Of a stretch of DNA of 64,000 nucleotides, positions 29,187 to 45,866 are shown piece by piece. This stretch comes from Paludisphaera mucosa. GTDB taxonomy: Bacteria; Planctomycetota; Planctomycetia; Isosphaerales; Isosphaeraceae. The position numbers were made by a program, and so were the translations under genes. The notes under the pieces were generated by a model. That model searched no databases. It worked only from the letters and a program-made list of their open reading frames with translations, and was not told the origin of the DNA. Every line of letters begins with the position of its first letter. The stretch's first letter is position 1. The stretch spans positions 5,146,001 through 5,210,000 of the forward strand of contig NZ_JARRAG010000002.1 of assembly GCF_029589435.1 (NCBI RefSeq). Direction: 5' to 3'.

Positions 29187-31253
29187 TCAACCCCCACGCA
29201 CGACCGGGTTCATGTCCACCTTCAGGCCCCCCGAGCCGGGGAGCGCCTGCGACAGCCGCCGCTTGAGGACGCGACGGACGCGGAAGATGCCCAGCGGCAG
29301 GACGACGACGACGGCCGACGCGGCCAGGAACTCGGGCGCGGCCCGCTTCCACGACGCCGGCGTCACCGCGTCCTGCGCCAGGCCGATCGAGACCCGGGTC
29401 AGCCGACGGACCTCGCCGGCGGCCAGGCCCACGGTGGTCGGGCTGATCGGGTCCTGGTCGCGGACCCAGAAGAGGTGGGTGCGGATGAAGTTCGACTCGT
29501 CCTCCAGGGTCCCCAGGCGGCGGTCGATCTCGGCGAGGATCTCCTCCTCGTTGCGGACCAGCTTCTCGAGGGCCTCGCGGCGGCGGGCGAGGATGGCGGT
29601 GTGCTTCTCCTCCAGCTCCCTCCAGATCGCGACGGCCTCGGGATGGCGGTCGGGCGTCAGCTTGTCCTGCAGGTCGTCGAGGTCGATCTGGTCGAGGAGG
29701 CGGTCCTCGATCTGGCTCAGCTCGACGCTCGTGAGCATGTTCGCATAGTCGCGCAGGCGCTTGTCGACGGCGTCGCGCTCGTCGCGTTCGATCCGCCGGC
29801 GCTCGGGCTCCAGGCGGCGGTAGTCGGCGTTGATGCTGAGGACGTCGAGCCGCCCGAGGCGGTCCTCGTCGCCCTCGATCAGGGTCTTGATCCGCTCGAA
29901 GTTGGCGCGGGCGATGTTGGCCTGGCTGCGCATGTCCTCGAGCGAGGGCTTCGATCCGGCGGTCACGGCCTGCTCGGCCCGGATCGCCGAGGCCTCCAGG
30001 TCGAGCAATTCGGCCAGGCGCTCGGCGCGGTAGCGCTCGATGGGGTCGCGGGCGGCTCCGGCCTTGGCCTGCTCGGCCTCCGCCTTGCGTCGGAGGTCCC
30101 CCTCGGCGGCCTCGGCGAGCTGGCGGAAGCGGGCCTGGGCCGGCTCCAGGACCTTCTTGCCGAGCCGGACGTGGGCGGCCCAGGCCTTGCGGCGGACCCC
30201 GGCGACCTCGGCCAGCTTCTCGGTGCGGACGATCTTCCGCTCGACGACCCGGAGCCGCAGGTCCTCGACGCTCGCCTCGACGCGCAGGTTGACGCCCCGC
30301 TCCTCGAACGCCTTCCGCTCGGCGGCCGTCCTGGGGGCGGCGGCGGCGGCCCGCGAGGCGTCGCGCGCCTTGAGCGCGGCGATCCCCTGGGCGATCCGGT
30401 CGCGGTCGGTCCGCAGCCCGGCGACCGCGTCCTTGGCCTTCTTCTCGGGCTCGGGGGGCGACGTCGCGAGCTTGTCCTGGTAGGCCTTGATGTCCTTCTG
30501 GAGGCCCTCGATGGCCTCTTGCATCTGCGCCCGCCCGGCCTGGTCGACCGCATCCTTCTGGGTGAACAGGGGGGGCAGCAGGGCGCCGACCGGCTGGTCG
30601 AGGCGGCCCTGGACGTCGGCGAGCTGGGCCTTGGCGTCGTCGAGCTGACGGTCGGGGCCGTTCTCGGGGGCGGTCATCTCGGCCAGCTCTTTGGCGAGCT
30701 TGTCGTAGTCGTCGAGCCGTCGGCGACGGTCTTCGAGGAGGTCGGCGAGGGCCTTGTCGTCGATCTTGGCGGGGTCGCCGTCGGCCTTGGCGTCGCCGCC
30801 GTCGGCGGGCGCCAGCGCCTTGAGCCGCTGGACCGCGTCGGCCCGGATCGCCTCGATCTCCTCGGGCTGGAGCAGGCCCGCGTCCGCGGCGGCCTTGGGG
30901 GCGGCCGGCGGGTCCGGAGCGGGGGCCCGGGGCTCGTCCTTCGGGGCGGCCGCTTTGGGCGTCTCGCCGGCCTTCGGGGCCGGGGCGGCCTCCACCTTGG
31001 GCCGGGCCTTGGCGGCCGGCGGGGGCGGGGCCTCGGCCGCCGGGCGATCGGGGGCGGGGAGCCTGGGGAGGGCGTCGCCGTCCCGGTCGGGCCTGTCGAC
31101 GGCCTGGGCCTCGCGGGTCGGGCCGTCGGCGGAGGGCTTGCCCGCTTGCTGGGTCTGGGCGCCGCCCCCGAGCACGCCGAAGACGATCGCCGCGGCCGTC
31201 GCCGCGCGGACGTCGATCCGCACGGGCCGGCGGTCTGTTTCGGATTGCGACAT
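29187..31253 (-). CDS. Coiled-coil periplasmic half of an MscK-like mechanosensitive channel
   Basis: 688 residues from the ATG at 31253 (AAGGA upstream). Residues 1-40 contain an export/anchor segment (ATAAAIVFGVLGGG). A long Pro/Ala/Lys-rich linker follows to about 150, then some 450 residues of charged coiled coil. Near the C terminus is FIRTHLFWVRDQDPIS, a motif that precedes the membrane part of MscK/MscM-like channels, and then one membrane helix (FLAASAVVVVLPLGIF). The protein ends in a basic stretch RVRRVLKRRLSQAL, just where the full-length family continues into more helices. Those helices are encoded in the next gene in another frame, overlapping by 11 bases. It is therefore either the N-terminal piece of a broken channel or a natural two-subunit form. 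Confidence 0.8.
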   Translation of the reverse strand: MSQSETDRRPVRIDVRAATAAAIVFGVLGGGAQTQQAGKPSADGPTREAQAVDRPDRDGDALPRLPAPDRPAAEAPPPPAAKARPKVEAAPAPKAGETPKAAAPKDEPRAPAPDPPAAPKAAADAGLLQPEEIEAIRADAVQRLKALAPADGGDAKADGDPAKIDDKALADLLEDRRRRLDDYDKLAKELAEMTAPENGPDRQLDDAKAQLADVQGRLDQPVGALLPPLFTQKDAVDQAGRAQMQEAIEGLQKDIKAYQDKLATSPPEPEKKAKDAVAGLRTDRDRIAQGIAALKARDASRAAAAAPRTAAERKAFEERGVNLRVEASVEDLRLRVVERKIVRTEKLAEVAGVRRKAWAAHVRLGKKVLEPAQARFRQLAEAAEGDLRRKAEAEQAKAGAARDPIERYRAERLAELLDLEASAIRAEQAVTAGSKPSLEDMRSQANIARANFERIKTLIEGDEDRLGRLDVLSINADYRRLEPERRRIERDERDAVDKRLRDYANMLTSVELSQIEDRLLDQIDLDDLQDKLTPDRHPEAVAIWRELEEKHTAILARRREALEKLVRNEEEILAEIDRRLGTLEDESNFIRTHLFWVRDQDPISPTTVGLAAGEVRRLTRVSIGLAQDAVTPASWKRAAPEFLAASAVVVVLPLGIFRVRRVLKRRLSQALPGSGGLKVDMNPVVRGG

Positions 31254-31688
31254 CGCGCGGGATCCTTCCCGAAGAAGTCCTGGGTGAAGACGCGAATCGG
31301 CCCGGCCGGAGTCCTTGGCGGGCGGGGCGTAGACTACCCGTCGGCCCGGCGACCGGCAAGCCGAGATCGGCCGCCGGGCGACCCGACCGGGTCGGCCCCG
31401 GAGGGCGGGGGCATGGGAGACGGCGCCCGGAAAGCCCCGCCTCGGCCGGCTGTTCCGGCTTGACCTGGATGGTGCGGCCCCTATCATTGGGACGGGCCGG
31501 CGCACGGCCCCAAGGGCCTCGCATTTCGACGGCGCCATCGGCCGTCGAGATCCCGCGTGCCGGCCGGCGCCCGCCGGCGTCCGAGGGCTCGTCCGTTCAG
31601 CCGACGCGTACGCCGCCCCTCGGAGAGTCCGTAACATTTCGGTGTCGAGCGTCTCGACGCTCGCTCGGCGTGGTGGATCGCAAATGCA
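31254..31688. other. Divergent intergenic region
   Basis: 435 bases between the channel gene (minus) and the CbiA-like gene (plus). It contains the strong plus-strand promoter at 31460-31487 and nothing else I can support. Confidence 0.5.
31460..31487 (+). promoter_or_regulatory. Sigma-70-type promoter upstream of CbiA-like gene
   Basis: TTGACC, 16 bases, TATCAT. The next plus-strand start codon is at 31689, so the transcript would carry a leader of about 195 bases. Confidence 0.55.
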
Positions 31689-33101
31689 ATGACGACGCCC
31701 GTCCCCCGCATCGCCCTGGCGACGTCCACCTCGGGCCCCGACCCGTCGATCGCCGGCCTGGCCCTCATCGCCGGCCTCACGGCCCGGCGGTGGCGCGTCC
31801 AGCACTTCCGCACCCGGGCCTGCCCGACCGCCACCGAGGTCGTCGCCCACGCGACCGGGATGCCGGGCCGCCACCTCGACACCTGGCTGATGCCGCCCGA
31901 CGTCTGCCGGACGCTGCTCGCCGAGGGCGTCCGCACCGCCGACCTCGGCGTGGTCGAGGGCCGCCTCGACTCGCCCGGCGTCCTCTGCGAGGCCGGCCTG
32001 GAGCCGGCGCCCGGCGACCTCGGCCCCCTGGTCCACATCCTGGACCTGCCGGTCGTCTCCGTCGTGCCGGCCGCCGGCTTCCGCGACGGCACGTTCCACC
32101 TGCCGGACCTGCCGCGGGACGCCGCCGCGGTGATCCTCGACGGCCTGGAATCCCCCGACGACCTGGACCGCCTCCGTCGGCTGATCCGGCTCACCAGCGG
32201 CCTGCCGGTCGTGGGAGCGGTCGACCTGCTCCCCGGGGCCCGTCGCGAGATCGAGGCCGCCCCCCCCGGCGCCTTCCCCCGCGAGGCGGTCGACGCCCTC
32301 GCCGCGAGCTTCCTGCGCCACGCCGACCTGAAGGCGATCGAGACGCTGGCCACCAGCCGGTCCTACCCGGAGTACGTCGAACGGCCGGGCCGCCGCCGTC
32401 CCGTCGGCTCGTCGGGGTTCCGCGTGGCCTACGCCCGCGACGCGGCCTTCGGCTGCTACTTCCCCGACACCTTCGAGGCCCTCGCGGCCCTGGGGGCGCA
32501 GCTCGTCGAGTTCTCGCCGCTCAACGACGGGGCCCTGCCCGACGGCGTGGACCTCGTGATGATCGGCTGCGGCCTGGCGGACGTCTACGCGGGCCAGCTG
32601 GCGTCGAACGTCAGCATGCTGGCGTCGCTGCGGCAGCACGTCTGCCGGGGCCAGCGGATCTACACCGAGGGGGGCGGCTCCGCCTACCTCGGCCGGTCGA
32701 TCATCGTCGACGGCGAGCGGATCCCCGGCGCGGGCATCCTGCCGGTCGAGGCCGAACGCGCGGCCGTCCCCAGGCCCCCCGAGCCGGTCGTCCGGACGCT
32801 CTCCCGCGACAGCTGGCTCGGACCCCGGGGCAGCAAGGTCCGGGGATACCGCAGCGGCCGCTGGAACCTGAAGTTCAGTCCCACCCCGTTCGAGTGCCCG
32901 TCCTGCTACGGCCGGCTCTCGGGCGACGGCGACTTCTACTTCCGCCACCACGCCGTGGGGAGCTTCGTGCACCTGCACCTGGCGGCGCTCCCCGAGGTCG
33001 TCTCGGCCTTCGCCGGGCCGCACCACCCGTCGCTCCGCCGGCCGACGACGATCGCCCTGCCCGACGAGACCCGGGAAGACGAGGCCGGCCCCGACGCCTG
33101 A
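31689..33101 (+). CDS. CbiA/CobB-family protein lacking P-loop lysine and glutaminase cysteine
   Basis: 470 residues. The overall order matches cobyrinic acid a,c-diamide synthases: an N-terminal dethiobiotin-synthetase-like domain, then a class I glutaminase-like domain, ending GSFVHLHLAALPEVVSAF as in CbiA. Key residues are missing. The P-loop, normally of the type GxxSGxGKT, reads TSTSGPDPSIAG, so the ATP-binding Lys is lost. The nucleophile region, normally AECGGLMYL, reads TEGGGSAYL, with Gly328 at the Cys position. It therefore probably cannot make glutamine-derived amides. No cobalamin gene is nearby. It may be a binding or regulatory protein derived from CbiA. Confidence 0.8.
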   Translation: MTTPVPRIALATSTSGPDPSIAGLALIAGLTARRWRVQHFRTRACPTATEVVAHATGMPGRHLDTWLMPPDVCRTLLAEGVRTADLGVVEGRLDSPGVLCEAGLEPAPGDLGPLVHILDLPVVSVVPAAGFRDGTFHLPDLPRDAAAVILDGLESPDDLDRLRRLIRLTSGLPVVGAVDLLPGARREIEAAPPGAFPREAVDALAASFLRHADLKAIETLATSRSYPEYVERPGRRRPVGSSGFRVAYARDAAFGCYFPDTFEALAALGAQLVEFSPLNDGALPDGVDLVMIGCGLADVYAGQLASNVSMLASLRQHVCRGQRIYTEGGGSAYLGRSIIVDGERIPGAGILPVEAERAAVPRPPEPVVRTLSRDSWLGPRGSKVRGYRSGRWNLKFSPTPFECPSCYGRLSGDGDFYFRHHAVGSFVHLHLAALPEVVSAFAGPHHPSLRRPTTIALPDETREDEAGPDA

Positions 33102-39458: not shown

Positions 39459-40355
39459 ATGGCGAACCCAGACCCCGGCTTCGGCGAGCCCGAGAGGCGC
39501 AACGCCGAGGCCCTGATCCGCATGGCCCTGGCCGAGGACCTCGGCGACCGCGGCGACCTCACCACGACGGCCGTCATCCCCCCCCAAGCCCGCGGGTCGG
39601 CCCGGCTGGTGGCGCGGGCGCCGGGAGTGCTCGCCGGCCTGCCGATCGTCGCCATGCTCGTCGAGGCGTTCGGGGTCGAAGGCTGGCGGCCCCGCAAGGC
39701 CGACGGCGACCGCCTGAGCGCCGGCGACGTCGTCGCCGAGATCGAGGGCGACTTCCGCGCGATCCTGACCCTGGAGCGCACCGCCCTGGATTTCGTCCAG
39801 CGGCTGGCCGGGGTCGCCACCCTGACCTCGCGCTACGTCGCCGAGGTCGCGGGGACCGCCGCCCGGGTCCTCGACACCCGGAAGACGACCCCCGGCTGGC
39901 GGATCCTGGAGAAGTACGCCGTCCGCTGCGGCGGCGGCTTCAACCACCGCATCGGCCTGTACGACGCCGTCCTGATCAAGGACAACCACCTGGCCTGGCT
40001 CAAGGCCGAAGGCGGCGCCGACCCGATCCCCCGCGCCGTCGCCGCGGCCCGCGCCGCCGCTCCCGAGGGGACGGTCGTCGAGGTCGAGGTCGACACGCTC
40101 GACCAGTTCGACGCGGCCCTGGCCTGCCGGCCCGACATCGTGCTCGTCGACAACCTGGGGCCGGACGCGCTGGGGGAGGCCGTCCGCCGCCGCGACGCGC
40201 GGGCGCCGGGCGTGCGGCTGGAATCCTCGGGGGGCGTGACGCTGGCGACGATCGGGGCGCTGGCCCGGACGGGCGTCGACCGGATCAGCGTCGGGGCCCT
40301 GACGCACTCGGCGATCGCCCTCGACGTGGCCTTCGACTTCGCCGTCGCCCCATGA
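39459..40355 (+). CDS. nadC: Nicotinate-nucleotide pyrophosphorylase (carboxylating)
   Basis: 298 residues. It makes nicotinate mononucleotide from quinolinate and PRPP in NAD synthesis. Signatures: ALAEDLGDRGDLTT at the N terminus, ERTALDFVQRLAGVATLT, VLDTRKTTPGWR, GGGFNHRIGLYDAVLIKDNH and the C-terminal VRLESSGGVTL followed by GVDRISVGALTHS. Length and order are normal. Its stop codon overlaps the birA start by four bases (ATGA), so the two are coupled; both enzymes serve cofactor metabolism. Confidence 0.97.
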   Translation: MANPDPGFGEPERRNAEALIRMALAEDLGDRGDLTTTAVIPPQARGSARLVARAPGVLAGLPIVAMLVEAFGVEGWRPRKADGDRLSAGDVVAEIEGDFRAILTLERTALDFVQRLAGVATLTSRYVAEVAGTAARVLDTRKTTPGWRILEKYAVRCGGGFNHRIGLYDAVLIKDNHLAWLKAEGGADPIPRAVAAARAAAPEGTVVEVEVDTLDQFDAALACRPDIVLVDNLGPDALGEAVRRRDARAPGVRLESSGGVTLATIGALARTGVDRISVGALTHSAIALDVAFDFAVAP

Positions 40356-41422
40356 CCGCCGGGCCGTCGACCACCTGGGCCGACCCCGCCCCGCCGGCCC
40401 TGAACATCCCGCTGCTGGAGCGGATCCGGGGCGCGGCGGGCTTCGTGCCGCTCGCCGAACTTCCCGGCGACCCCCGGGCGACGGCCGCCGACCTCGACGC
40501 GCTGGCGGCCTTCGGCTTCGGGCTCGACCGCCGCGAGGACGGGGCCGTCGCCTATCGGGGGCCGGCGCGACGGCTCTGCCCGGACCAGATCGAGCACGAG
40601 TTGGGCACGGCGCGGATCGGCCGCCGGCTGGCCGTGTGGAGCCGCGTCGGCAGCACCAACGACGCCGCCGCGCGGGGGGCTTCGACGGCGGCCAACGACG
40701 GCCTGGTCGTGATGGCCGAGGAGCAGACCTCGGGCCGCGGCCGCCGGGGCCGGTCGTTCCACGCGCCCGAGCGGTCGAGCCTGCTGATGTCGGTCCTGCT
40801 CTTCCCGCCCGCGAGCCTCGCCCCGATGGGGAAGGACTCGGCCTCGGGCGTCGCCTGGCTGACCGTCGTGGGGGCGGTCGCCGTCGCCGAGACGGTCGCC
40901 GAACGCTCCGGCCGCGAGGCCCGCATCAAGTGGCCCAACGACGTCCGCGTCGACGGCCGCAAGATCTGCGGCGTGCTGGTCGAACGCGCGATCCGCCCGG
41001 CCGACGCCGACGGCCCGGAGACGGCGGTCGTCGTGGGGATCGGCCTGAACGTGAACGTCGCCGCCGATGCGTTCCCCCCCGAGCTGCGCGAGAAGGCGAC
41101 CTCGCTGCGGATCCTGTCCGGCCGCGATTTCGACCGCTCGGACCTGGCCCGCGACCTGATCCGCCGCCTCGACCGCTGGTACGACGCCAGCCTCCGCGAG
41201 GGCCCGTCGGCCCTGTCCCTGGCCTGGCGCGACCACTGCGAGCACCTGGGCCGCCCCGTCCGCGTCGCGACCGCCACGGGTGTCCTCGCCGGCCGCCTGG
41301 TCGACGTCGACCTCGAACAGGGCCTGACCCTCGAACCCGGCCCCGCCGACGACCCCGCCCGCCTCCCCGGCCTGGTCCGCATCCCCCTCGACGCCGTCGC
41401 GGCCCTCGAACCCGGAGCCTGA
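40352..41422 (+). CDS. birA: Biotin-[acetyl-CoA-carboxylase] ligase
   Basis: 356 residues. The N-terminal 80 residues resemble the winged helix of bifunctional BirA (LLERIRGAAGFVPLAEL ... ADLDALAAFGFGLDRR), so it may also regulate biotin genes, but the helix is divergent. The ligase core has GSTNDAA, EEQTSGRGRRGRSFHAPERSSLLMSV (biotinyl-AMP loop), IKWPNDVRVDGRKICGVLVE and GIGLNVNV. The C-terminal SH3-like domain follows the long helix WYDASLREG. It biotinylates BCCP of acetyl-CoA carboxylase. The start overlaps nadC. Confidence 0.95.
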   Translation: MTAGPSTTWADPAPPALNIPLLERIRGAAGFVPLAELPGDPRATAADLDALAAFGFGLDRREDGAVAYRGPARRLCPDQIEHELGTARIGRRLAVWSRVGSTNDAAARGASTAANDGLVVMAEEQTSGRGRRGRSFHAPERSSLLMSVLLFPPASLAPMGKDSASGVAWLTVVGAVAVAETVAERSGREARIKWPNDVRVDGRKICGVLVERAIRPADADGPETAVVVGIGLNVNVAADAFPPELREKATSLRILSGRDFDRSDLARDLIRRLDRWYDASLREGPSALSLAWRDHCEHLGRPVRVATATGVLAGRLVDVDLEQGLTLEPGPADDPARLPGLVRIPLDAVAALEPGA

Positions 41423-41693: not shown

Positions 41694-42149
41694 TCAATCC
41701 AACGTCGCAATCACGTACAGCATCAGGGCGACGTAGGCGAGGAGGCCGGCGATCAGGCCCGTGCCCAGGGCGATGAGGAGCCCGAAGGAGATCTTCGCGA
41801 GCGCGCCGCGGCGGGCGTCGGGATCTCGGAAGGATCGCAGTTCTCCGAAGCGCAAGGCGGCGAGGAGGAGGGGGACGGCGACGAGGACGAGGATCAGTCC
41901 CGACGCCGTCTCGTAGGATCGCTTGAGGCGATCGCGCGCGGCGTTCGCTTCCCGTCGATGCGACTCCGCCCGGTCGTGCTCTCCCCTGCGGGCCGAGGCT
42001 TCGGCCTTGCGGTCGGATTCCCGGGCGTTGGGGAGGTGCAGGAACGTCCCTTCCAGCAGGTGGCCCGCCCCCAGGAACGTGACGAAGAACGCGGCGAACG
42101 CGACGGTGGCCAGCATGAGCGCCGTGACGGAGCAGCCGAGTCGGGGCAT
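41694..42149 (-). CDS. Small three-helix membrane protein of unknown function
   Basis: 151 residues from the ATG at 42149. Hydrophobic segments are at about 7-30 (VTALMLATVAFAAFFVTFLGAGHLL), 86-103 (ASGLILVLVAVPLLLAAL) and 124-148. Between the first two lies a charged helix rich in Arg, Glu and Ala (about 40-80) that is likely a periplasmic coiled coil. I recognise no family. It is divergent from the winged-helix gene at 42321, and the short gap between them may hold a shared regulatory region. Confidence 0.68.
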   Translation of the reverse strand: MPRLGCSVTALMLATVAFAAFFVTFLGAGHLLEGTFLHLPNARESDRKAEASARRGEHDRAESHRREANAARDRLKRSYETASGLILVLVAVPLLLAALRFGELRSFRDPDARRGALAKISFGLLIALGTGLIAGLLAYVALMLYVIATLD

Positions 42150-42320
42150 GGGGCGAGGGCCTCGTCGCGTGGGGGTGGGTCGCATTTCCGCGTCCCGAGG
42201 ATCGCCCCTCTCCCGCGATGCGTCAAGCTCGGCCGGATTTTGCTGCGGGATTCGGGGGCGGGTCGGGTAGCATCGCGGATGGAGGCGGTGGATCTCATCG
42301 GTCGGATCGGGAGGTCGTTC

Positions 42321-42623
42321 ATGGCGGACGCCGGCGCCCGGATGACGGTCCTGCATGCGGTGGCCCACTTCGAGGGCCGGTGGGGAAAGGATCGGCTCGA
42401 GCGCGCCTTCCCGCCGGGCTGGTTCGCCGACGAGCCTCCGAACACGTCGGTGTTCAAGATCCTGTACGCCCTTCAAAGGGAAGGGCTCGTCGCCGGCCCC
42501 GACCGGACCGACCTCCGCTGGATCTACGTCGCGACCGATCGCGGCCTCGCCGCGCTCCGCGAGGCGGGCCTGGATTCGACCGGGCCCGTCGAGGGCCGCC
42601 TCGCCCCGGGGAACACGCCATGA
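42321..42623 (+). CDS. Small winged-helix-like protein
   Basis: 100 residues from the ATG at 42321, with GGGAGG six bases upstream; an earlier in-frame ATG at 42279 would add 14 residues. The central and C-terminal parts read like a winged helix: TSVFKILYALQREGLVAG followed by LRWIYVATDRGLAALREAG. No ligand-binding domain is present. Its stop overlaps the start of the next gene in ATGA. It may be a regulator or adaptor for the membrane protein encoded next. Confidence 0.65.
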   Translation: MADAGARMTVLHAVAHFEGRWGKDRLERAFPPGWFADEPPNTSVFKILYALQREGLVAGPDRTDLRWIYVATDRGLAALREAGLDSTGPVEGRLAPGNTP

Positions 42624-43150
42624 CGCCGAAATGGACCGATCCCGACTTCGAAGACGGGTCCAAGAAGGCCGATCGATGGACCGATCCGGACTTCGAGGAT
42701 GGGGCCAAGAAGTTCGCCGACGTCGGCGCCTTCTCGTCGCGGCGCTGGCGGCTCGCGTTCGCCATGGGCGTCGCGACGATGGTGCTCTTCTTCCTCCTGT
42801 CGTGGACGACCGTCAGGATCCGACCGCCAGGGCCCGTCGGCCCGACGCCGCCCCGGTCGCCGATCCTCGCGGCGAAGCGGCGGGAGCCCCTGAAAAAGTA
42901 CAGGATCGATTCTTGGACGGCCCCGTCGCCGCGGAGCGTCGCCGGCGCCCTGCGCGCCGGCCCCCTGCCGGTCGTCGCCCCCATCCCGGTCAAGCGACCG
43001 ATCCCGAGCGCCCCGCGTATCCGTCCCGCCACTCCGGTCCCGTTCGTCCCGAGCAGGGCGATATCGCCCCGGCCGATGGTCTCGTCCTCCACCCCGATCC
43101 CTCCGGCCACGCCGGCCGAGCCGGCCATGCCGCTGTTCCCATTCCCCTGA
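42620..43150 (+). CDS. Single-pass membrane protein with doubled WTDPDFEDG motif
   Basis: 176 residues. The N terminus holds the same 13-residue element twice: KWTDPDFEDGSKK and RWTDPDFEDGAKK (about residues 4-16 and 19-31). One membrane helix follows (LAFAMGVATMVLFFLLSWTTV, about 45-65). The remaining 110 residues are Pro/Arg/Ser-rich without order, probably outside the membrane. I do not recognise the motif. The next gene encodes a relative with one copy of it. Translation is coupled to the winged-helix gene through a four-base overlap. Confidence 0.68.
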   Translation: MTPKWTDPDFEDGSKKADRWTDPDFEDGAKKFADVGAFSSRRWRLAFAMGVATMVLFFLLSWTTVRIRPPGPVGPTPPRSPILAAKRREPLKKYRIDSWTAPSPRSVAGALRAGPLPVVAPIPVKRPIPSAPRIRPATPVPFVPSRAISPRPMVSSSTPIPPATPAEPAMPLFPFP

Positions 43151-43234
43151 GCGCCTCGGCCGGAACCGGGCGGCGGCCCTAAGGATCGGCCCGCCCGAAC
43201 GTGATGAAGCTGGACCCCGGGAAAGGAGGATGCC

Positions 43235-43729
43235 ATGACGACCCGATGGACCGATCCCGAATTCGACGACCGATGCAAGAAGGACGAGCCGGCGGCTCGG
43301 GCGCACGCCTTCCTGGGCATGCGGCCCGGGGTCGCTTGCGGGGCGACGACCGTCCTCGTCGCCATGCTGGCGGCCTACACCACGCTCGAAGGGCCGTCGG
43401 CCGCCACGACCCGCCCGCGGGCGCGGCGAGTCTCGATCGCGTGGCCGGCCCAGGTCCGGACGGCCCCGCCGAGGATCGCGCCCCGCGTCCCCGGGCCTCC
43501 GCTCCGGCGCGGCCGATTCACGCCCGCGCCGCCGATGGCGTTCGACCCCCCGATGGTCGTCCCGGCCCGCCCGGGGATCGACGAGGCGATGATCCACGAG
43601 GCCCGTACGGACCTCGATCCCGGGATGATCGTCCCGGCGCATCCCAGCTTCGGGCCGATCGACGCCGTCCCGATCGCGCCCGGGCCGCCGGCGGTCAGGG
43701 CGCCGGCGCGAACCACTCCGGGCCGATGA
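43235..43729 (+). CDS. Single-pass membrane protein with one WTDPEFDD motif, relative of the previous gene
   Basis: 164 residues with an excellent ribosome-binding site GAAAGGAGG five bases upstream. It starts MTTRWTDPEFDDRCKKDEP, a single copy of the element doubled in the preceding protein. A hydrophobic stretch follows (PGVACGATTVLVAMLAAYTTL, about 31-51), then a Pro/Ala/Arg-rich tail. The 3' end overlaps the convergent sialidase-like gene by 35 bases, and both frames look real. The function is unknown. Confidence 0.65.
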   Translation: MTTRWTDPEFDDRCKKDEPAARAHAFLGMRPGVACGATTVLVAMLAAYTTLEGPSAATTRPRARRVSIAWPAQVRTAPPRIAPRVPGPPLRRGRFTPAPPMAFDPPMVVPARPGIDEAMIHEARTDLDPGMIVPAHPSFGPIDAVPIAPGPPAVRAPARTTPGR

Positions 43730-45098
43730 TCCGGCCGAGGAGGAAGAACTTCCGGTCGGGATACCAGAGCACCGCGCGGCCGTTTCGGACGGTCGAGCTG
43801 GCGTAGAGGGCCAGGTCGAGACGCCCGGGCGTCCCCGGCTTGCCCAGCGCGACGCCGTCGTGATCCATGAACGGGCGGGGCTCGTCGAACCAGACCGGCT
43901 GGTCGGCCCCGGCCTGGAAGCGGCCGGCCGCCAGGAAGATCGGCCGGCGATGCCGGCCCGTGTCGGCCGGGCCGTAGCCCTTGTAGTGGCCGTCGTGGTT
44001 GTGGAGGAAGAGCGCGTATCGGCCGCCGCCGGCCGACTCGCCCACGTCGTAGATCGGGCAGGGTGAGAGGGGATGGAGCAGGGGGGCTCCGCCGTCCTTG
44101 CGCAGCAGCACCTGGGGCGAGGTCCAGGTCTCGCCGCCGTCGCCGCTCTGCGACCAGTACGGGCTGCCGGCCGCCGTCCGCATGACCACGAACAGCCGGC
44201 CGTCGGGGAGCCTCACGATCGACGGCTCCTGGCAGGCGCTCCGCTCGGGACGGCCCGGGAACGGCACGGCGAGCGCCTTGTCGTTCGAGGCGAACCACGA
44301 AATCTTCAGGTCGCGCGGCTCGGGGGCGTCGTCGACGTTCTCGAACCGCATGAACTCGACGCGGGCGTCGGCCGCGCGCCAGTCCTTGAGCGGGTTCGGG
44401 ATCACCGCGTAGCTGGTCCAGCGGGTGAAGCCGGCGAGGTATCTGCCCCCCGCGCCGAGCCGCAACGGCTTCTGCCAGCAGAGCATGTTGGGCGGCATCG
44501 TCGGGTCGGGGTTGTCGTGGATGCTGCGCGCGACGGGGACGTCCTGGGGCGGCGACCAGGTCCGGCCGGCGTCGTCGCTGATGACGCCCCGGAGCCATCC
44601 GGTGTGGTGGAAGAACGTGTCGAACCTGCCGATGTGCTGGCTGTACAACACGTAGATGCGACCGGTCTTCGCCACCAGCGGGTAGCCCCAGCTCGCCATG
44701 GGGCCGTCGCCCGGCTTCTTCGGCCCGGCGACCACCCGGGGCTCGGTCCAGGTCTTCCCCTCGTCGTCGCTGCGGGCGAAGGCGATGTGCTGGTCGGCGG
44801 GCTGGGCGGCCGAGTAGTTCTCGACCGAGCTTTGCGTCCACACGGCCATCAACGAGCCGTCGGGCCCGTCGAAGACCAGGAAATGCTCGTTGCCCGTGTC
44901 GGCGACCGCCCCGTCGCGGATCCTGGGGACGAAGACGACGAAATCGGGCTTCGTCGCGCGCAGCTCCGTCGCCGCCCGCGCGCGAAGGTCGTCGGCGTCC
45001 TTGATGAACTCCTTCGCCGCCGGCCCCTGGCCCGACGCCGGACTCGTCAGCCCCCACGCCCCCGCCAACGCGGCGGCCGCCACGAGATGATGTCGCAC
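43695..45098 (-). CDS. Secreted sialidase-like (BNR/Asp-box) protein
   Basis: 467 residues from a GTG at 45098 with GGAGGG six bases upstream; the signal peptide starts exactly there (VRHHLVAAAALAGAWGLTSPASG). Longer in-frame readings would run through the rnpB gene and are rejected. Three Asp boxes mark the beta-propeller: SDDEGKTWTEP, SDDAGRTWSPP and SGDGGETWTSP. An Arg in FARSDDEGK and one in the FVVMRTAAGSPYWS strand resemble the arginine triad of sialidases. The substrate may be a sialic acid or another glycan; planctomycetes often carry such exo-glycosidases. Confidence 0.87.
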   Translation of the reverse strand: MRHHLVAAAALAGAWGLTSPASGQGPAAKEFIKDADDLRARAATELRATKPDFVVFVPRIRDGAVADTGNEHFLVFDGPDGSLMAVWTQSSVENYSAAQPADQHIAFARSDDEGKTWTEPRVVAGPKKPGDGPMASWGYPLVAKTGRIYVLYSQHIGRFDTFFHHTGWLRGVISDDAGRTWSPPQDVPVARSIHDNPDPTMPPNMLCWQKPLRLGAGGRYLAGFTRWTSYAVIPNPLKDWRAADARVEFMRFENVDDAPEPRDLKISWFASNDKALAVPFPGRPERSACQEPSIVRLPDGRLFVVMRTAAGSPYWSQSGDGGETWTSPQVLLRKDGGAPLLHPLSPCPIYDVGESAGGGRYALFLHNHDGHYKGYGPADTGRHRRPIFLAAGRFQAGADQPVWFDEPRPFMDHDGVALGKPGTPGRLDLALYASSTVRNGRAVLWYPDRKFFLLGRIIGPEWFAPAP

Positions 45099-45317: not shown

Positions 45318-45866
45318 AGAGGGCGTCGCGGCGGTGGCGTAAGCCGGATTCTGTCGGGGACGGAGGAACGGGGACCGCTCCATCCGGCCTCGGATGATCA
45401 TTTCTCTGGGACGCCGGTCTCCCGACGCCTCGAGCGACCTACCCGGGAGTCGATGACGGGTCGGGCCGACCCGTGCGGGACGAAGGCTCGCGAGGTCCGG
45501 TCGCCCGGCCCTTCGACGCCCACGCTGTCTCCCGCTGCTCCCCTATTTGGTCTTGCTCCCGGTGGGGTTTGCCGAGCCAGGCCGGTCGCCCGGCCTGCTG
45601 GTGAGCTCTTACCTCACCGTTTCACCCTTACCGCGACGTCGGGACGTGAATCCCGGCGGCGAGGCGGTTTGCTTTCTGTGGCACTTTCCCTATCCCGTAC
45701 GCGAACGCACCGGACGGTGGGCGTTACCCACCACCGCGCCCTGGGGAGTCCGGACTTTCCTCCGCGGCACGTCCCCCAGGCCGGTCCGCGCCCGCCGGGT
45801 CTCCCCGACGCGCCCGAGCCGCCCTGGGGCGCCACGGCGATCATCGCTTCCGCCGCGAGCCCTCTG
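45318..45866 (-). ncRNA. rnpB: RNase P RNA (bacterial type A, enlarged)
   Basis: On the minus strand the conserved blocks occur in order: GAGGAAAGUCCGGACUCC (45762 downward), GGUGGGUAACGCCCACC, CAGAAAGCAAACCGCC, GGUAAGGGUGAAACGGU, GAGCAAGACCAAAUAGGGG, GGGUAGG and ACAGAAUCCGGCUUA (45354-45340). The ends pair as P1: GAGGGC plus UCGCGGCGG at the 5' end with CCGCCGCGA plus GCCCUC at the 3' end. The length is about 549 bases against 377 in E. coli. The extra lies upstream of the GAGGAAAG block (about 104 bases) and between CAAAUAGGGG and GGGUAGG (96 bases against about 25). It is the catalytic RNA that matures tRNA 5' ends. Confidence 0.95.

Follow-up and report, generated by a model that had tools for sequence, protein, structure and literature searches.

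A candidate family of small exported proteins with a repeat tail in Isosphaeraceae, and its apparent local derivative in Paludisphaera mucosa

In the present work, we analysed a cluster of small predicted membrane proteins within a 64,000-nt stretch of Paludisphaera mucosa DNA (hereafter the window). The reading that we favour, at a probability of about one half, is that gene 2 of this cluster (43235-43729, + strand; 164 aa) represents a hitherto undescribed family of small exported proteins in Isosphaeraceae, bearing a repeat tail and an N-terminal box, and that the preceding gene 1 (42620-43150, +; 176 aa) is a local derivative of it. Members of this family would most likely be small anchored or secreted envelope proteins that work through the repeat tail.

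The locus and its N-terminal box

As a preliminary description of the locus had reported, gene 1 carries two copies of the box, KWTDPDFEDGSKK (42629-42667, +; residues 4-16) and, 45 nt further on, RWTDPDFEDGAKK (42674-42712, +; residues 19-31), and gene 2 carries one, RWTDPEFDDRCKK (43244-43282, +; codons 4-16), located by motif search. Each protein also has the single membrane helix ascribed to it, predicted by hydropathy at residues 45-63 of gene 1 (42752-42808, +) and at residues 33-51 of gene 2 (43331-43387, +), where it would form the membrane helix or signal-anchor core. The Pro-rich tail ascribed to both proteins fits gene 1, whose long Pro-rich tail is without repeats, but in gene 2 the Pro-rich part is a Pro/Arg linker, and the best-conserved segment of the protein had been missed. 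This is a tail of three 12-residue repeats (FDPPMVVPARPG, IDEAMIHEARTD and LDPGMIVPAHP; 43541-43645, +), delimited by a period-12 test, leave-one-out profiles and substitution ratios. The box itself is non-random and, in line with the earlier claim, falls in no described family that we found: degenerate DNA for WTDP[DE]F[DE]D, allowing up to three mismatches, picked out only these three sites in the window against 0.06 expected from shuffles, and with zero mismatches the same three sites were the only ones in the 8.2-Mb genome, in which a reversed control pattern had no match.

Upstream of gene 1 lie a birA-like gene for a biotin-protein ligase (40352-41422, +) and a small PadR-like (winged-helix-like) gene (42321-42623, +) that encodes 100 aa from an ATG behind GGGAGGT and has an alternative start at 42279. 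The Pro-rich end of gene 1 stops 84 nt ahead of gene 2, which is preceded by a GGAGGA Shine-Dalgarno sequence. A BNR/sialidase-like gene (43695-45083, -; start set by a codon model, with the longest ORF beginning at 45401) converges with gene 2 and overlaps its 3' end. The codon model was trained on ten genes, nine of which have Pfam matches while the tenth is presumably uvrB; it scored the PadR-like gene at 30, gene 1 at 28.5 and gene 2 at 15 over 164 codons, with -107.5 for the long antisense ORF. Between the birA-like and PadR-like genes, an orphan gene (41694-42149, -) encodes a 151-aa protein that apparently has several membrane helices and a sub-cutoff match to Exosortase_EpsH (E 0.0026); it is absent from the four orthologous gene 2 loci described below. 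Elsewhere in the window, positions 30001-32000 show an AT skew of -0.25, the remaining 2-kb steps ranging from -0.07 to 0.13.

The relation of genes 1 and 2 is confined to their 5' ends. Their DNA is alike at 39/48 nt over codons 1-16, at 15/42 nt over codons 17-30 and at 9/20 nt upstream. In gene 1 the box is doubled at a 45-nt spacing, as an internal repeat, and the repeat tail was found there neither with a full tail profile (no hit) nor with a partial one (E 58); the N-terminal box is all that it shares with the family. The simplest reading is that gene 1 arose as a local copy of gene 2's 5' end, about 16 codons long, in which the box was doubled and to which a different tail is joined. 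Identical codons between the box copies numbered 10/10, 7/9 and 8/11, where codon usage predicts 8.3, 7.2 and 9.1. As codon usage alone would give about this much identity, the copying event need not be recent. The three boxes thus look like one N-terminus copied locally and not like independent uses of a linear motif. The exact pattern was also used to look for a wide distribution of the motif, in 45 genomes of the family and 392 of the phylum, and the matches outside the source genome (G019 and G275) were set aside as unrelated; they have the form W-T-DPDFDD-x-x-W and lie in other, larger proteins, a form that we take to be typical of glycosidase jelly-roll domains. In G019 the same sequence around WTDPDFDDKSW occurs at two contig ends (L011 and L012), probably as one gene split by the assembly.

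The repeat-tail family

Four of the five other Paludisphaera genomes (G001, G003, G004 and G005) contain an ortholog of gene 2, the profile search matching named loci in P. soli JC670 and MAG 71-10. Each ortholog has an MTTRWTDPDF-like N-terminal box, a hydrophobic helix, a Pro/Arg-rich linker and conserved C-terminal 12-residue repeats (IDPxMIVPARPG-like), and in all five genes, gene 2 included, the start codon is preceded by GGAGGAYGCC. The orthologs begin with MTTRWTDPDFRDD (G001), MSTRWTDPDFSDR (G003), MTTRRIDPDFEER (G004) and MTTRWAESDFGDC (G005). The expectation that the motif would recur in small membrane proteins of other planctomycetes therefore holds for these orthologs and, in a looser form, beyond them, but WTDPDF itself is kept in only two of the four, the others reading RIDPDF and WAESDF. 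The surroundings are largely shared as well, with the sialidase-like gene downstream in 4/4 ortholog loci and birA upstream in 3/4. In G001 and G004 the ortholog sits between these two genes; in G003 it follows birA and is separated from the sialidase-like gene by about 3 kb of other genes; in G005 it adjoins the sialidase-like gene, and the stretch examined contains no birA. The sixth genome of the genus, G002, gave no match in the gene 2 search (E 0.01) or in the sialidase search, and carries a more distant member of the repeat-tail family elsewhere in its genome. The BNR/sialidase-like gene was itself detected at E 1e-50 in 4/5 other Paludisphaera genomes and in 0/7 other family genomes tested. 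A plasmid search with gene 2 returned no match.

Over the ten pairs of gene 2 orthologs, pN/pS was 0.39-0.80 in codons 1-16, which hold the box, 0.63-1.33 in residues 17-52 including the helix, 0.81-1.63 in linker residues 53-104, 0.27-0.61 in residues 105-136 and 0.51-1.33 in residues 137-153, with 0.74-0.97 for the gene overall. The lowest values fall in residues 105-136, making the tail the most constrained part of gene 2. Judged by these ratios, selection is centred on the box and the tail, and the helix and linker drift.

The tail also defines the wider family. Gene 2 and its homologs carry there two or three repeats of 12 residues, built around D-x-x-M-[VI], and across the tails 109/276 residue pairs were identical at offset 12, where shuffles gave a mean of 24 and a maximum of 42 (n = 2000); no other offset between 3 and 18 reached a third of the identity rate at this one. 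In other genera, weak matches were obtained with a five-sequence profile of gene 2 and its orthologs (A1), and those in G002, G059, G028 and G060 turned out to be small proteins built like gene 2. With these four added, the resulting profile (A2) found further members in G025 (E 1e-8), G009 (1.4e-8) and G021 (7.7e-4). In total, 20/45 Isosphaeraceae genomes passed E 0.05 and members were accepted in 12. The weak matches left out were those in G017, G033, G008, G032, G018, G062, G013 and G007, together with a second weak match in G028; we inspected G017, G033, G062, G013 and one of two places in G018, and for G008 an 11-residue piece of the match. Among the matches outside the count of 12, a small protein of G033 (L060; G033:C299:45625-45918) has VDPRFVVQARPMDEPMV near its end (E 0.0026) and may be a distant member of the family.

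Leave-one-out tail profiles recovered 12/12 members at E 7e-10 or better, the best decoy from a background of window reading frames and their reversals standing at 1.3 or worse. The five-ortholog profile placed the other seven members above the best background score (3.2), five of them at 2.3e-4 or better, G059 at 0.004 and G009 at 0.075, and a profile built without the five orthologs recovered all of them at 4.3e-8 or better, gene 2 itself at 6.3e-9; these leave-one-out and reciprocal figures are somewhat favourable, since the members had been selected by related profiles. Three members (G060, G009 and G021) were not called by the codon model trained on ten genes, so that the case for their being genes is made by position and by the conserved tail. 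When 118 genomes of the class were searched with the tail profile, 18 passed E 0.05; ten of these, at 1.4e-14 or better, are all Isosphaeraceae, and the other eight, at 3.5e-4 or worse, were not accepted as members, two of them after inspection. In the A1 search of 392 phylum genomes, only nine candidates per listed genome were scored; the absence of the family outside Isosphaeraceae is therefore drawn chiefly from the 118 class genomes and is incomplete. On present sequence evidence the family appears lineage-restricted, having been found so far in Isosphaeraceae alone, and fast-changing.

All 12 members, and gene 1 with them, show by hydropathy one hydrophobic helix behind a short N-terminus, followed by a Pro-rich linker. 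The N-terminus ahead of the helix spans 15-32 residues in the family and 44 in gene 1; the linker of the members contains 11-40% Pro, and each member has 0-2 Cys. Within the first 20 residues, an acidic-hydrophobic box of the form DP[DE][FWL] occurs in 8/12 members (as DPDF, DPEF, DPDW, DPDL or DPEL) and is absent from those of G005, G060, G021 and G025. Outside gene 2 and its orthologs it is present in 4/7 members, from three genera. It occurred at this position in 0/150 other called proteins of the window and the 12 loci (DP[DE] alone in 3/150), a control set that includes orthologs from related genomes and is therefore not independent, and the pattern was chosen after the sequences had been seen. 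Given the looser box in 8/12 members against 0/150 controls, we read WTDPDF preferably as the version that an older and looser DP[DE][FWL] box has taken in Paludisphaera.

Possible roles and alternative readings

Under the favoured reading of an anchored or exported envelope protein, the gene 2 product would enter the membrane N-in/C-out through a signal anchor, or be exported by means of a long-leader signal peptide, and the Pro/Arg-rich linker would carry the repeat tail away from the membrane. There the tail would bind an envelope partner. The box is probably on the cytosolic side, and may dock a partner; it would engage an inner-side factor or help targeting. Gene 1 would then amount to gene 2's first codons, with the box doubled by the 45-nt tandem repeat, in front of another tail. 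Charge does not settle the topology: in gene 2 the ten residues ahead of the helix carry +1 and the fifteen behind it +3, and 5/12 members are more positively charged after the helix than before. AlphaFold models are of low confidence (pLDDT 45 for the PadR-like protein and 53 for gene 2); that of gene 2 places the helix at residues 31-51.

A candidate partner is suggested by the gene neighbourhood. In G059, G028, G060, G009 and G021, a DUF1501 gene (E 1.2e-144 or better) lies directly upstream of the family member on the same strand, and with this gene next door the DUF1501 protein is the obvious candidate for the partner in those five genomes. The member is followed by an SGL gene in G060 and G009; in G021 the two are separated by a called gene that has no Pfam match. 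DUF1501 homologs close enough to score E 1e-160 or better occur in 37/45 family genomes, and of the 30 DUF1501 loci returned, five carry the repeat tail within a flank of at most 1.5 kb. The linkage is absent in 6/6 Paludisphaera genomes. In two of them (G000 and G005) what comes directly after the DUF1501 gene is an SGL-like frame, labelled by its likeness to Pfam-matched SGL genes; the small gene would thus have moved or been lost there, or have been gained in the other genomes. At the five loci with a repeat-tail gene behind DUF1501 (L047, L049, L050, L070 and L071), the DUF1501 start as called is twin-arginine-like in four, and SGL, methyltransferase and TilS genes lie nearby in some.

The strongest competitor is a secreted peptide, in which the box would belong to the n-region of a cleaved, extended Sec leader and affect export, only the linker and tail staying outside. 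Extended leaders are known from autotransporters. AxA-like sites occur near the helix end in 4/12 members (G003, G002, G060 and G025), and in G021 in mid-helix; in such members the helix could belong to a signal peptide that is cut off together with the box, which makes a long leader a serious alternative. The ten residues before the helix are also net positive in 11/12 members. However, neither gene 2 nor gene 1 has an AxA-like site, the N-terminus of gene 2 has a net charge of 0 and an acidic box, unusual in a leader, and neither protein matches an extended-leader model, as neither has any Pfam match up to E 1. We regard this reading as less likely than not, at odds clearly short of even.

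A more elaborate proposal is a two-ended linker, in which a docking box of the DP[DE]-hydrophobic type in the cytosol and a three-fold D-x-x-M repeat outside the cytoplasm, joined through the membrane, would connect a factor on the inner side with exported proteins, DUF1501 for instance; in the source strain, a new tail would have received a copied and doubled box and come under a new coupled regulator. We put this forward as a speculative extension of the favoured reading, improbable in its full form.

The regulator-membrane system of the preliminary description, in which the winged-helix protein would control the box proteins, or be tethered by them, through WTDPDF, fares considerably worse. 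In its favour, the PadR-like gene and gene 1 overlap at ATGA and no Shine-Dalgarno sequence is visible ahead of gene 1, so that the proposed translational coupling of the two is plausible; the box is probably cytosolic; and the upstream protein has a weak match to PadR (PF03551) of 17.4 bits, below the 27-bit gathering cutoff. The start at 42321 has the better Shine-Dalgarno sequence, and the codon model prefers 42279; a single-sequence AlphaFold model of low confidence (pLDDT 45) contains helices only, and one match was obtained in the PDB (E 0.23). Against the system, the PadR-like gene and gene 1 are missing from all four orthologous gene 2 loci, and neither has a convincing match in the 58 relatives searched, both having been found only in the source genome. 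Six non-self matches to gene 1 (E 0.001-0.008) all fell within Pro-rich query residues 67-167 and were rejected, as was the single match to the PadR-like query (G034, - strand; E 2e-4), which lies in an alanine-rich helical stretch, is probably due to chance and is presumably TPR-like rather than a winged helix. Gene 2 and its box thus exist without the other two genes, and the small membrane proteins do not lie beside the same winged-helix gene in those four loci. Within the reach of the searches, both gene 1 and the PadR-like gene would be strain-level additions that stand outside any conserved system; with both found only in the source genome and gene 1 sharing about 16 codons, no conserved three-gene system was found, and we consider the regulator-membrane system very unlikely.

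No better placed is a nascent-chain sensor on the model of CutF (PMC9973294), in which translation of an exported Pro-rich protein would control the gene that follows. The family is exported by prediction and Pro-rich, with a poorly conserved linker; the Pro-rich end of gene 1 closely precedes gene 2, and family genes precede an SGL gene in G060 and G009, and one gene further on in G021. However, a convergent gene follows gene 2, leaving no same-strand gene directly behind it, the 0-2 Cys per member provide no CxxxC motif, the conserved part is the repeat tail and not the extreme C-terminus, and the following gene differs between genomes, all of which renders a sensor role remote. We give equally little credence to a fast-evolving, near-neutral ORFan without maintained function, for although the overall pN/pS, the narrow distribution and the weak coding score would fit one, the box and tail are kept across genera, GGAGGAYGCC stands before the start in all five orthologous genes and the leave-one-out profiles score well.

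Relation to known systems

None of the 12 members matched a Pfam or NCBIfam model at E 0.01. With genes 1 and 2 as queries, PHROGs likewise gave no match, and NCBIfam gave only a sub-cutoff MotB match in the gene 1 helix region (E 0.41). Literature searches found no description of the repeat-tail family among the papers listed.

Proteins of the TonB/TolA type have a short cytosolic N-terminus, one helix, a Pro-rich linker and a C-terminal binding region outside, and the family resembles them in this architecture only. Its tail is a 35-residue repeat and not a folded domain, and the TonB C-terminal domain had no Pfam match in genes 1 and 2 (to E 1) or in the 12 members (to 0.01). The CutF-like nascent-chain sensors (DUF2946; PMC9973294) share with the family small size, export and Pro content, and, in some genomes of the family, an enzyme gene behind; the family differs in having no Cys metal motif (gene 1 has no Cys, and gene 2 only C14 and C35), no DUF2946 match and, in the case of gene 2, no same-strand gene directly behind. 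The likeness to PadR regulators amounts to the sub-cutoff match noted above, which covers model positions 28-75 of 75. A genomic parallel is with planctomycete DUF1501 gene clusters. In the part of PMC4452313 considered here, DUF1501 is treated as uncharacterised and tied to the gene sets of bacteria with intracellular membranes, and Kamneva et al. (2012) is cited. A family member directly follows DUF1501 in five genomes; Paludisphaera lacks the linkage, and that part of PMC4452313 mentions no repeat-tail protein.

The locus illustrates that a striking motif common to one locus can be a copied N-terminus and not a signalling system. At the same time, a small family conserved at its two ends, and encoded beside DUF1501 in several genomes, offers a short and testable handle on the planctomycete envelope. 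Taken against these known systems, the repeat-tail family is apparently an undescribed representative of a familiar kind, the small single-helix envelope proteins, rather than a new kind of system.
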